A stretch of 64,000 nt of DNA, taken from contig SUVQ01000001.1 of assembly GCA_015061905.1 (NCBI GenBank), forward strand, positions 1 through 64,000. Reading direction: 5' to 3'. The notes below the pieces were generated by a model. That model made no database searches, was not told the DNA's origin, and saw only the letters and a list, made by a program, of their open reading frames with translations. The translations under genes and the position numbers were made by a program. Position 1 is the first letter of the stretch. Each line of letters opens with the position of its first letter. Shown here in pieces: positions 28,801 through 31,853 of the stretch. This DNA is from Verrucomicrobiota bacterium (GTDB lineage: Bacteria; Verrucomicrobiota; Verrucomicrobiia; Opitutales; UBA953).

Positions 28801-28929
28801 ACTTTATAAAAGTTTGTTCCTGACCACTCCACGCAGGATAAAACCTGCGTTCCTGTGCGACGAGTTGCAATATTCTTGATTCTCCGTGTCGGCTTTGTTC
28901 TTCTTTCGTTACCTCCCCTTATTTACCCT

Positions 28930-30159
28930 ATGTCTTATTTCAAAAAAAAATTGTCGTTAGGCGTATTGTCTGCAATTTGCGTTGTTGCTTCCCCAATTGC
29001 ACATGCGGTTGAAATTGATACGAGTTCCAATGCCGTGTTTGACCTTTATTTTTTCGGCAACGGAGAAGTCGCTCAACTCGGCGAAAATCTTTCCGGATTT
29101 AAGGATTACAACACCGGATTGGATTCCCAACAGATTACCGGATGGACGGATTGGACGGGAACGCCTTCAGTCGCCAACGAAAATTCTTGGACACAGGCGC
29201 AGAAACAGGCGATGACGGAAGCCGTTGCAGCATGGACTGACGCAATCCGAAACGTCTACGATACTCAAGGCGGGACACGTCGGAAAATGCGTATCGGCTT
29301 TTTTCTTGATGACGCGACGCGAAGCGAGTCGCTTATGGAAACATCAATGACCGGCTACGCTTCTTACGCAACGACGACTTCTGACTTTGCAAACGGAAGT
29401 CCCGTAAATCTGTATTCGGTTCCGGAATGGCTGTGGCGAGACGGGAAGTCAGCGACAGTCTCTCCGCCGAGCTCTTCAACATCGGGCTCGTTTTGGAATT
29501 ACAATTTGCTCCCTAATGCGGAAAATTGCATTGAAGTCGCGATTGTCATTAATCCGGAACAGCTTGTTTATTCGAATGGTCTGGCAACGCGAGTGGAGCG
29601 GTCTGCGGAAGACCTCAAAAAAGTCGCAATGCACGAACTCGGACATGCCATGGGAATGGACAGCAAAATGTATACCGCAAGCGAAGCGTATCCGAAATCT
29701 AATTTGGTAACCACGTGGGACTCGCTGATGATGATTGGAGAAAACCAACGTGTTATTACGCTCGGTCCAGACGGAAAATTAGATTATGCCTATGAAAATT
29801 TTCGCCTGCTTTGCGCTGAAGGCTGGTCGCTTTACGAGGCTTGGTTTAATTCAGGCGAAGGCGAAGAAAAATTAATCCGCCTACAAAATGCCGACGGCGA
29901 AGTTGTGAATCTTTTGGTTACGGCGGGAACGAACGTGGAAGGAAATTCGCTGGTTCACCTTTTAGGTGAACTCGGAAAGCAAAACGATGTTCTCGGTCCC
30001 GGCGGACTACAAGGCGCAGAATTTACGGAGCTTGATTTAACTGCGTTGCGTATGCTCGGTTGGCAGGTTGCCATTCCCGAGCCGTCCGTTTTCGGATTGC
30101 TTGCGAGTCTGGGCGCATTCGTGCTCGTCGGTGTCCGCCGCAGGAAAAGGAACATTTAA
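28930..30159 (+). CDS. PEP-CTERM protein with HExxHxxGxxx zinc-metalloprotease motif
   Basis: AMHELGHAMGMDS; IPEPSVFGLLASLGAFVLVGVRRRKRN; signal peptide from MSYFKKKLS. Confidence 0.85.
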   Translation: MSYFKKKLSLGVLSAICVVASPIAHAVEIDTSSNAVFDLYFFGNGEVAQLGENLSGFKDYNTGLDSQQITGWTDWTGTPSVANENSWTQAQKQAMTEAVAAWTDAIRNVYDTQGGTRRKMRIGFFLDDATRSESLMETSMTGYASYATTTSDFANGSPVNLYSVPEWLWRDGKSATVSPPSSSTSGSFWNYNLLPNAENCIEVAIVINPEQLVYSNGLATRVERSAEDLKKVAMHELGHAMGMDSKMYTASEAYPKSNLVTTWDSLMMIGENQRVITLGPDGKLDYAYENFRLLCAEGWSLYEAWFNSGEGEEKLIRLQNADGEVVNLLVTAGTNVEGNSLVHLLGELGKQNDVLGPGGLQGAEFTELDLTALRMLGWQVAIPEPSVFGLLASLGAFVLVGVRRRKRNI

Positions 30160-30232
30160 AGATTAAAAGAGCTCGAAAGAAAAGCGTTCCCGTGGTGCAT
30201 TTCGCGGGAACGCTTTTTCTGTAAGAAGGAAT
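30155..30232 (+). repeat. Direct repeat copy 2 flanking PEP-CTERM metalloprotease gene
   Basis: AAGCGTTCCCGTGGTGCATTTCGCGGGAACGCTTTTTCTGTAAGAAGGAAT. Confidence 0.8.
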
Positions 30233-30264
30233 AATGACTTTTCTTTAATAAAAATGAATACTAA

Positions 30265-30270
30265 TATAAT
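30265..30270 (+). promoter_or_regulatory. Consensus -10 box TATAAT upstream of structured small-peptide unit
   Basis: CTAATATAATAGAC; no strong -35. Confidence 0.45.
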
Positions 30271-30341
30271 AGACTTTATTGCTCGCGGTTACGTCCTCGC
30301 GGGCAAGTAAAACAGACACACGGACCGAAACAAAAAAGAAA

Positions 30342-30391
30342 CCGTGAGAGTCGCCACTCTCACGGTCTTATTTGGAAAGGAGCTTCCAAAT
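30342..30391 (+). promoter_or_regulatory. Tandem leader hairpins; second holds the SD in its loop
   Basis: CCGTGAGAGT-CGCC-ACTCTCACGG and ATTTGGAA-AGGAGC-TTCCAAAT. Confidence 0.8.
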
Positions 30392-30452
30392 GGAATCATT
30401 AATCCTGATTCTCATTTTGATTCTACTTATTTTGGAGTCAATAAAGAAATGA
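30390..30452 (+). CDS. 20-aa hydrophobic peptide, candidate type I toxin-like
   Basis: ATG..TGA = MESLILILILILLILESIKK with AGGAG 7 nt upstream of ATG; below ORF-track size cutoff. Confidence 0.6.
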   Translation: MESLILILILILLILESIKK

Positions 30453-30453
30453 G

Positions 30454-30494
30454 GTAAAAAGCCCTCGCCGTTTTTTTTTCGGCGGGGGCTTTCC
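30454..30494 (+). terminator. Rho-independent terminator of small-peptide unit
   Basis: AAAAAGCCCTCGCCGTTTTTTTTTCGGCGGGGGCTTTCC. Confidence 0.7.
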
Positions 30495-30644
30495 CAAAAC
30501 GGGAATCCGTGTGTTTTCTTGCTTTTTTAAATTCGCAACTTTGCGACTTACGTGAAATAAGCCCGTTGCATCGGCGTAAAATTATTTGCATATTTAGAAA
30601 TGCGTTCTGACGCTTTTAAACTCTGTTTCCCGCGAATTTAAACG

Positions 30645-31853
30645 ATGAACTTTGTATCCAAAATTTACTGTCGCGCTTTCCAGACGGCGTTCCGCTTGGC
30701 TTTACCCGTTTTGCCGTATCGGGAGCCGCAAATCGTCAATTCCTGTGCCGGGCTCAAAAGCATTTTCGAAAAAGAACACGTGAAATCGGTGCTCGTCGTT
30801 ACGGACAAGGGTATCGTGGCAAACGGCTTGTTGGCGCCGCTCGAAAAAGTTCTGACGGAAAGCGGCGTAAAATTTACCGTTTACGCGGGAACGCAACCGA
30901 ACCCGACGGTTGAAAATGTGGAGACGGCGCTTGAGTTGTATCGCGGGAACGCCTGCAATTGCCTAATCGCCGTCGGCGGCGGGTCTTCCATGGACTGCGC
31001 GAAAGCCGTCGGCGCGCGTGTCGCTTATCCAAAGAAAACCATCGGGCAAATGAAAGGCGTTTTGCGTATCCTGCGTCGCTTGCCGACATTGATCGCAGTG
31101 CCGACAACGGCGGGAACGGGGAGCGAAGTTACGCTCGCCGCAATTATTACCGATAGCGAAAAACAGCACAAATACGCGTTAATGAGTTTCCCGCTCATTC
31201 CGCATTACGCCGTATTGGACGCTTCGCTGACGTATTCTTTGCCGCCGCATCTGACTGCGACAACCGGCATGGACGCACTCACGCACGCAGTCGAAGCCTA
31301 CATCGGGCGTTCCACCACCAAGGAAACCCGCCGCCTCGCTCTCGAAGCCGTGAAACTGGTTTTTGACAACATCGAACCCGCCTGCGGGAACGGCAAAAAT
31401 CACGCTGCGAGAGAAAATATGCTTCACGCCGCCTACAAAGCAGGCGTGGCGTTTTCAAAATCCTACGTCGGCTACATTCACGCGGTCGCGCACTCTTTGG
31501 GCGGGCAATACGGCACACCTCACGGACTCGCGAACGCCGTTATTATGCCTTACGTTTTGGAAGCTTACGGAAAATCCGTATATAAAAAACTACATACACT
31601 CGGCACCGTCGCCGGCGTATGCGACGGAAACGACACCGACAAGATCGGTGCCGAAAAATTCATCGCGGCAATCAAAACGTTGAACAAAAAAATCGGCATT
31701 CCCGCCAAGCTCGCCGGAATCCGCCGGGAAGATGTTCCCGTCATGGCGAAACACGCCGCGAAGGAGGCGAACCCGCTTTATCCCGTTCCGAAACTGATGA
31801 CGCAAAACGAACTTGCCGAATTTTACGCGCAGTGCGCAGATTGGAGTAATTAA
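30645..31853 (+). CDS. Iron-containing alcohol dehydrogenase
   Basis: GGGSSMDCAKAVG, PTTAGTGSEVT, AVAHSLGGQYGTPHGLANAV. Confidence 0.93.
   Translation: MNFVSKIYCRAFQTAFRLALPVLPYREPQIVNSCAGLKSIFEKEHVKSVLVVTDKGIVANGLLAPLEKVLTESGVKFTVYAGTQPNPTVENVETALELYRGNACNCLIAVGGGSSMDCAKAVGARVAYPKKTIGQMKGVLRILRRLPTLIAVPTTAGTGSEVTLAAIITDSEKQHKYALMSFPLIPHYAVLDASLTYSLPPHLTATTGMDALTHAVEAYIGRSTTKETRRLALEAVKLVFDNIEPACGNGKNHAARENMLHAAYKAGVAFSKSYVGYIHAVAHSLGGQYGTPHGLANAVIMPYVLEAYGKSVYKKLHTLGTVAGVCDGNDTDKIGAEKFIAAIKTLNKKIGIPAKLAGIRREDVPVMAKHAAKEANPLYPVPKLMTQNELAEFYAQCADWSN

Follow-up and report, generated by a model that had tools for sequence, protein, structure and literature searches.

A multi-copy family of 20-codon peptide genes in gut Opitutales looks like a new RNA-controlled toxin family

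In the window, as we call the whole stretch of 64,000 nucleotides from a genome of the verrucomicrobial order Opitutales, a compact locus on the + strand has a Fe-alcohol dehydrogenase gene as its 3' neighbor. It begins with a −10 element (TATAAT, 30265-30270, + strand) that, judging by its sequence, would belong to the promoter of a peptide mRNA; the start is predicted at about 30276-30278, that is, at the base of a GC-rich hairpin (hairpin 1, 30276-30308). The sense −35 is weak in this copy, and full promoters occupy the same place in paralogues (TTGACA-16-TATGAT in L013, TTGACA-16-TATACT in L016). The loop of hairpin 1 contains GTCC (30293-30296), which can pair with GGAC (30322-30325) in the linker that follows, and an A-rich stretch (30327-30340), read on the − strand as the U-run of a predicted antisense RNA terminator, leads to a perfect hairpin with a CGCC loop (hairpin 2, 30341-30366) lying directly 5' of the Shine-Dalgarno region. 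The Shine-Dalgarno sequence (AAGGAG, 30377-30382, 7 nt 5' of the ATG) is located in the loop of a further hairpin, ATTTGGAA-AGGAGC-TTCCAAAT (30370-30391), with the AUG at its base, and precedes an ORF (30390-30452, + strand) that encodes the 20-residue hydrophobic peptide MESLILILILILLILESIKK and ends with a TGA stop. A GC-rich hairpin lies 3' of the stop codon (30458-30492), as it does at the same place in other copies. The −10 element, the four hairpins and the ORF had been listed by the initial annotation, which described a structured mini-locus for a type I toxin-like peptide; all were found in the sequence, and the fold of 30285-30500 (−72.6 kcal/mol, z = −5.3) was matched by none of 200 shuffles, in agreement with the structured character proposed. 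The last hairpin had been called a strong terminator: it is GC-rich, but its sense side is followed by CTTTCCC only, TTTTT being on the − strand, and it is probably a (bidirectional) terminator.

This first reading holds but under-calls the locus, which is confirmed to be a member of a multi-copy family. DNA searches returned a second copy on the same contig, 292 kb from the window locus, a third one on another contig of the same genome, and further copies in genomes of the same genus. The covariance-model search for homologues that had been proposed was run with a model (R1) built from ten copies and recovered 13 places in 6 of the 8 genomes of one Opitutales genus, whereas it matched no other genus in a set of 79 genomes of the family, and nothing beyond the genus in 377 genomes of the order. 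Weak model matches in G001 and G007 (E 0.04-4) were discarded as chance, no such ORF being present where they were inspected. A degenerate ORF pattern gave 8 matches in 373 genomes of the order, all within the genus, its reversed control gave 0 in the same set, and a stricter SIKK-type pattern searched across 85,462 species found five places, again all in this genus. The strict pattern matched records of Opitutales/Opitutia MAGs, three of which originate from the colon of a water buffalo, the rectum of a water deer and the rectum of a sheep; viral contigs had no match to the ORF pattern. Overall, a genome contains one to four copies, at unrelated sites.

Comparison of the 12 intact copies shows an ORF of invariably 20 codons. 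Two C-terminal types exist, ...ESIKK (or LSIRK) and ...LVSR, the second being the same frame moved by two codons, so that 12 core codons align. When seven ORFs of the ESIKK type are compared in pairs, the differences at codon positions 1, 2 and 3 sum to 102, 6 and 158, respectively, and the codon changes comprise 126 synonymous ones, 68 exchanges within L/I/V/M/F and 12 others; the +1 frame has many stops. Judging by this comparison, the ORF appears to be translated, and the copies share what is expected of a type I toxin, namely a short hydrophobic peptide from a conserved ORF. No Pfam or NCBIfam model matched the peptide above cut-off, one copy matching the model of Ecr, a small membrane regulator, very weakly (E 0.06, far below cut-off). 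Regarding the RNA, six loci had no Rfam match at the gathering threshold, and no relevant family was returned for the window region up to E 1.

The 5' part of the module is likewise maintained, in this case through base pairing. Across 11 copies, 94% of the cells are paired when hairpins 1 and 2 are taken together with a short helix in the ORF, against 33-45% in a slid pairing control, and double changes affect 17 pairs and 60 cells, compared with 20.7 cells in shuffles (0 of 500 as high). Both sides have changed in 7 of the 11 pairs of hairpin 1 (93% of cells paired) and in 9 of the 11 pairs of hairpin 2. The ORF helix (TTGATTC/GAGTCAA) is not claimed as a conserved structure, as coding and the antisense −35 described below could explain its conservation. 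Conservation of hairpin plus ORF in relatives, whose absence would have told against the initial annotation, is seen for hairpins 1 and 2. Moreover, four bases in the 10-nt loop of hairpin 1 are complementary to the linker, GCCC facing GGGC in seven copies, GCUC facing GAGC in two and GUCC facing GGAC in two, the linker having changed in compensation with the loop. Loop and linker match in 11 of 11 cases within a copy and in 0 of 64 combinations across classes, and the best of 2000 trials with shuffled linkers reached 6 of 11. This pairing is predicted to close the 5' end of the mRNA into a pseudoknot; the divergent G006 copies, in which hairpin 1 has another form, lie outside this test.

The Shine-Dalgarno hairpin, presented earlier as a key element, does not belong to this conserved part. 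It is perfect only in the window copy and in an orthologue 97% identical to it, shorter (GGAA/TTCC) in two copies and absent from the remaining paralogues. With this hairpin, folding predicts an unpaired probability of 0.05-0.35 for the AUG of the window copy, and folding without pseudoknots predicts that the AUG or the Shine-Dalgarno sequence is partly paired in most copies, by helices that differ. As the start site is predicted to be partly buried, by different local helices from copy to copy, the hairpin of the window is best regarded as one local solution and not as a defining feature. Pairing between the start region and the 3' end is predicted in c3 and G005d only, and with two sequence types concerned, the idea of a long-distance 5'-3' pairing as a universal control was dropped; a kissing interaction between the loops of hairpins 1 and 2, sought by eye, was inconsistent. 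In the LVSR-type c3 (L004, L016), the start-codon stretch CAGACGATGTCCACCTCC has its complement, GGAGGTGGATNTCGTCTG, at the 3' end of the module, possibly forming a long-distance lock on the start codon. Most copies also have a short palindrome at or just 3' of the Shine-Dalgarno sequence (window 30377-30386, L012, L010, L011, L024, L033 and L034), varying from copy to copy (AGCT, GGATCC, GGAATTCC, GGTACC, AGATCT, GTGCAC).

A putative antisense promoter within the ORF and the loop-linker pseudoknot are the two features that the earlier reading missed. Inside the ORF, the − strand carries TTGAC[T/A]-N16-CANNAT-N7-A in 11 of 11 tabulated copies, and the ORF of the 12th intact copy is identical to that of c3. 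In the window, the antisense −35 (TTGACT, 30436-30441, − strand) overlaps codons 16-18, GTCAA being kept in all intact copies, and the −10 (CAAAAT, 30414-30419, − strand) overlaps codons 9-10, with the 16-nt spacer and CANNAT invariant in the tabulated set. From this promoter, a conserved CA initiator and a terminator, we predict an antisense RNA of about 76 nt (30331-30406, − strand, +1 A at 30406) as putative antitoxin. An independent scan of 30150-30660 returned the antisense promoter as its sole promoter-like site and, as its strongest terminator, hairpin 2 read on the − strand (30368-30339, tail CTTTTTTGTT). In 11 copies, the 14 nt past hairpin 2 contain 6-12 U when read antisense and 1-5 when read in the sense direction, the U-run being weak in both G006 copies. 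The −10 agrees with the consensus at only 4 of 6 positions (3 of 6 in G006), and a shuffled region contains one such promoter on average. Codon usage provides a further angle on this promoter. Among the genes of the window, Ser is encoded by TCA in 3.8% of cases and Glu by GAG in 22.5%; in the family, every intact copy nevertheless has TCA as codon 17, codon 16 always ends with G and codon 2 is mostly GAA. Under synonymous sampling, the antisense promoter would arise by chance with a probability of 0.0002-0.005 per copy, values that overstate the significance because the null is genome codon usage and the ORFs are A+T-rich with rare codons elsewhere. Moreover, 4 of the 12 aligned wobble bases are invariant (codons 6, 10, 16 and 17) and all fall in the predicted +1, −10 and −35 (Fisher 0.01), it being understood that the conserved codons are not independent, as the copies are related, and that the −10 and +1 elements were defined partly after the alignment was seen. 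The conserved − strand promoter and the hairpin 2 terminator are likely to constitute an antitoxin RNA gene, with a predicted product of 70-80 nt whose 5' part would lie over codons 1-6 and the Shine-Dalgarno sequence and whose 3' end would be hairpin 2.

The distribution of the copies reveals both absence and decay, damaged copies being common. The same Fe-alcohol dehydrogenase gene is found with the module in G000 and G003 and without it in G002 and G005, and at each of the two module-free sites the upstream gene also adjoins the module in a module-bearing genome; where loci are orthologous, the flanks have been vertically inherited. Copy 2 of G003 has lost start and stop and has a Pro in its core, as does G005a, and G006 contains a cluster of one intact and three damaged copies, with a further remnant on another contig. 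By eye, TTGAC on the − strand is kept in most damaged copies. Presence/absence and decay fit a dispensable module whose peptide would be costly when unchecked. Within the G006 cluster (L034:5300-6320, on G006:C174), the intact ORF reads MITLIVVLMLLLLLILSIRK, and the other copies, in which the frame has shifted or the hydrophobic core is lost, still have hairpin 2 and the − strand TTGAC; the remnant (G006:C33, L061 at about 1550-1700) retains hairpin 2, the ribosome site, a degraded ORF MELITEIPMVLIRFYIVNT and GTCAA. Besides the dehydrogenase gene of the window, the 3' neighbors include a gene for a thioredoxin-like protein at copy 2, and RbsD/FucU is also among the neighbors.

Altogether, comparison of sequences makes it probable that the family is a type I toxin-antitoxin-like module, controlled at the ribosome site by antisense pairing. 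The type I label of the initial annotation is thereby retained as a working model well supported by the peptide, the copies and the predicted antisense RNA, without its emphasis on the Shine-Dalgarno hairpin. The + strand would give an mRNA of about 220 nt in which hairpin 1, forming a pseudoknot with the linker, is followed by hairpin 2 beside the ribosome site, and the 20-residue hydrophobic peptide translated from it would be expected to insert into the inner membrane. From the promoter in codons 9-18, a − strand RNA of about 75 nt ending at hairpin 2 would pair with the start codon, the Shine-Dalgarno sequence and hairpin 2 and block translation, with RNase III probably gaining access to the duplex. 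Loss of the antisense RNA would allow the peptide to be made and to depolarise or arrest the cell. We infer the transcription of either RNA, the silencing and the membrane toxicity from this arrangement.

Three other readings deserve consideration. The peptide might be a small membrane protein without toxicity, for instance one that regulates a membrane complex, with a cis-antisense RNA adjusting how much of it is made; the same coding and antisense signals would then be expected, and the faint Ecr match points in this direction. We nonetheless judge it rather unlikely, as the copy number of one to four per genome, the unrelated sites, the presence/absence pattern and the broken copies fit a membrane-disrupting peptide better, and a core of only I, L and V with interchangeable residues suits membrane disruption better than binding to a specific partner. 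The frame held at exactly 20 codons with second positions nearly unchanged, together with flanks that are vertically inherited where orthologous, makes it very improbable that the locus is a structured non-coding or mobile repeat (a sense/antisense small RNA or a MITE-like element) with an incidental ORF, despite its strong structure, its multiple intergenic copies and the partial G006 copies in which TTGAC is kept and the ORF broken.

With its short ORF rich in Ile and Leu and the GC-rich hairpin behind it, the locus also recalls an amino-acid attenuation leader, in which an Ile/Leu/Val-rich peptide and a hairpin would regulate the next gene. However, the neighbors are Fe-alcohol dehydrogenase, RbsD/FucU and thioredoxin-like genes, without branched-chain amino-acid genes downstream, G002 and G005 have the dehydrogenase in place but lack the module, and neither the antisense promoter nor the pseudoknot would be explained; this reading is extremely improbable.

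Among known systems, the nearest described layout to the type I-like module is that of aapA/IsoA from Helicobacter pylori, in which an essential 80-nt antisense RNA is transcribed from a promoter inside the ORF and masks the Shine-Dalgarno sequence (PMC6733600). Both have a small hydrophobic peptide, several loci per genome, an mRNA of about 225 nt with a structured 5' end and a cis-antisense RNA of about 80 nt with its −10 within the ORF and lying over the Shine-Dalgarno sequence, both RNAs being here predicted from sequence (PMC6733600); in two relatives of the window copy, c3 and G005d, the start region is in addition predicted to pair with the 3' end. In contrast, the present peptide has 20 residues instead of 30 and comes from another phylum, the conserved hairpin 1 and the loop-linker pseudoknot are particular to it, and the 5'-3' long-distance pairing does not extend to all copies. 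Pfam, NCBIfam, Rfam and the ORF pattern revealed no relation of peptide or RNA to aapA/IsoA. The "Ibs-like" qualification of the initial annotation is apt for the size and hydrophobicity of the peptide: IbsC of Escherichia coli (19 aa) is toxic, as is a derivative of 15 aa, at least 10 of them hydrophobic, and it is controlled by an antisense RNA, as is predicted here (PMC8309996). It does not extend to a sequence family, since no Ibs/Sib covariance model of Rfam matched the six loci at the gathering threshold, and the antisense layout is closer to aapA/IsoA; the peptide is a different one with a C-terminal Lys or Arg, and the predicted antisense RNA begins in the ORF, its 3' end being a hairpin that the mRNA also contains. 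As no sequence relation to aapA/IsoA or Ibs/Sib was detected, we file the family as working alike and not as a member. MsoT1/MsoA1 from Microcystis (Cyanobacteria) is also type I-like and outside the three classical phyla (PMC12390103), but it has been tested by experiment and belongs to an unrelated lineage.

According to a 2025 paper, type I systems have been known from Proteobacteria, Firmicutes and Tenericutes only, Cyanobacteria being newly added, and this narrow range is partly a search bias, as the methods seek resemblance to known loci (PMC12390103). The open-access papers searched yielded nothing relevant on type I systems in Verrucomicrobia, T1TAdb and subscription journals lying beyond this search. 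A Verrucomicrobiota family would thus add a phylum, and its recovery in Opitutales from raw sequence supports the search-bias view (PMC12390103). Whether it is the first type I family of this phylum, with a 60-nt ORF that doubles as antitoxin promoter, a hairpin 2 that is both 5'-UTR element and antisense terminator, and a pseudoknot acting as a new control of toxin-mRNA translation or stability, is a claim for which we find our confidence evenly divided. A route to further systems is to look for hydrophobic mini-ORFs in which the invariant wobble bases spell out an antisense promoter; the covarying pseudoknot is a concrete RNA element, and the peptide, essentially L/I/V with a short charged tail, represents a minimal model for membrane-acting toxins.

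Finally, some observations concern single copies and their surroundings. The G004 copy (L037, L024) differs from the others in its Shine-Dalgarno sequence, GGAGG, which has a distance of 10 nt to the ATG, and adjoins another terminator-like hairpin, of GCGTTCCCG type. In the window, 28855-30159 encodes a weakly matrixin-like protein (Peptidase_M10, below the gathering cut-off) whose C-terminal EPSVFGLLASLGAFVLVGVRRRKR tail resembles a PEP-CTERM sorting signal; a matrixin-like gene lies 5' of the dehydrogenase gene in G000 and G002, and an MFS-like transporter gene takes its place in G003 and G005.
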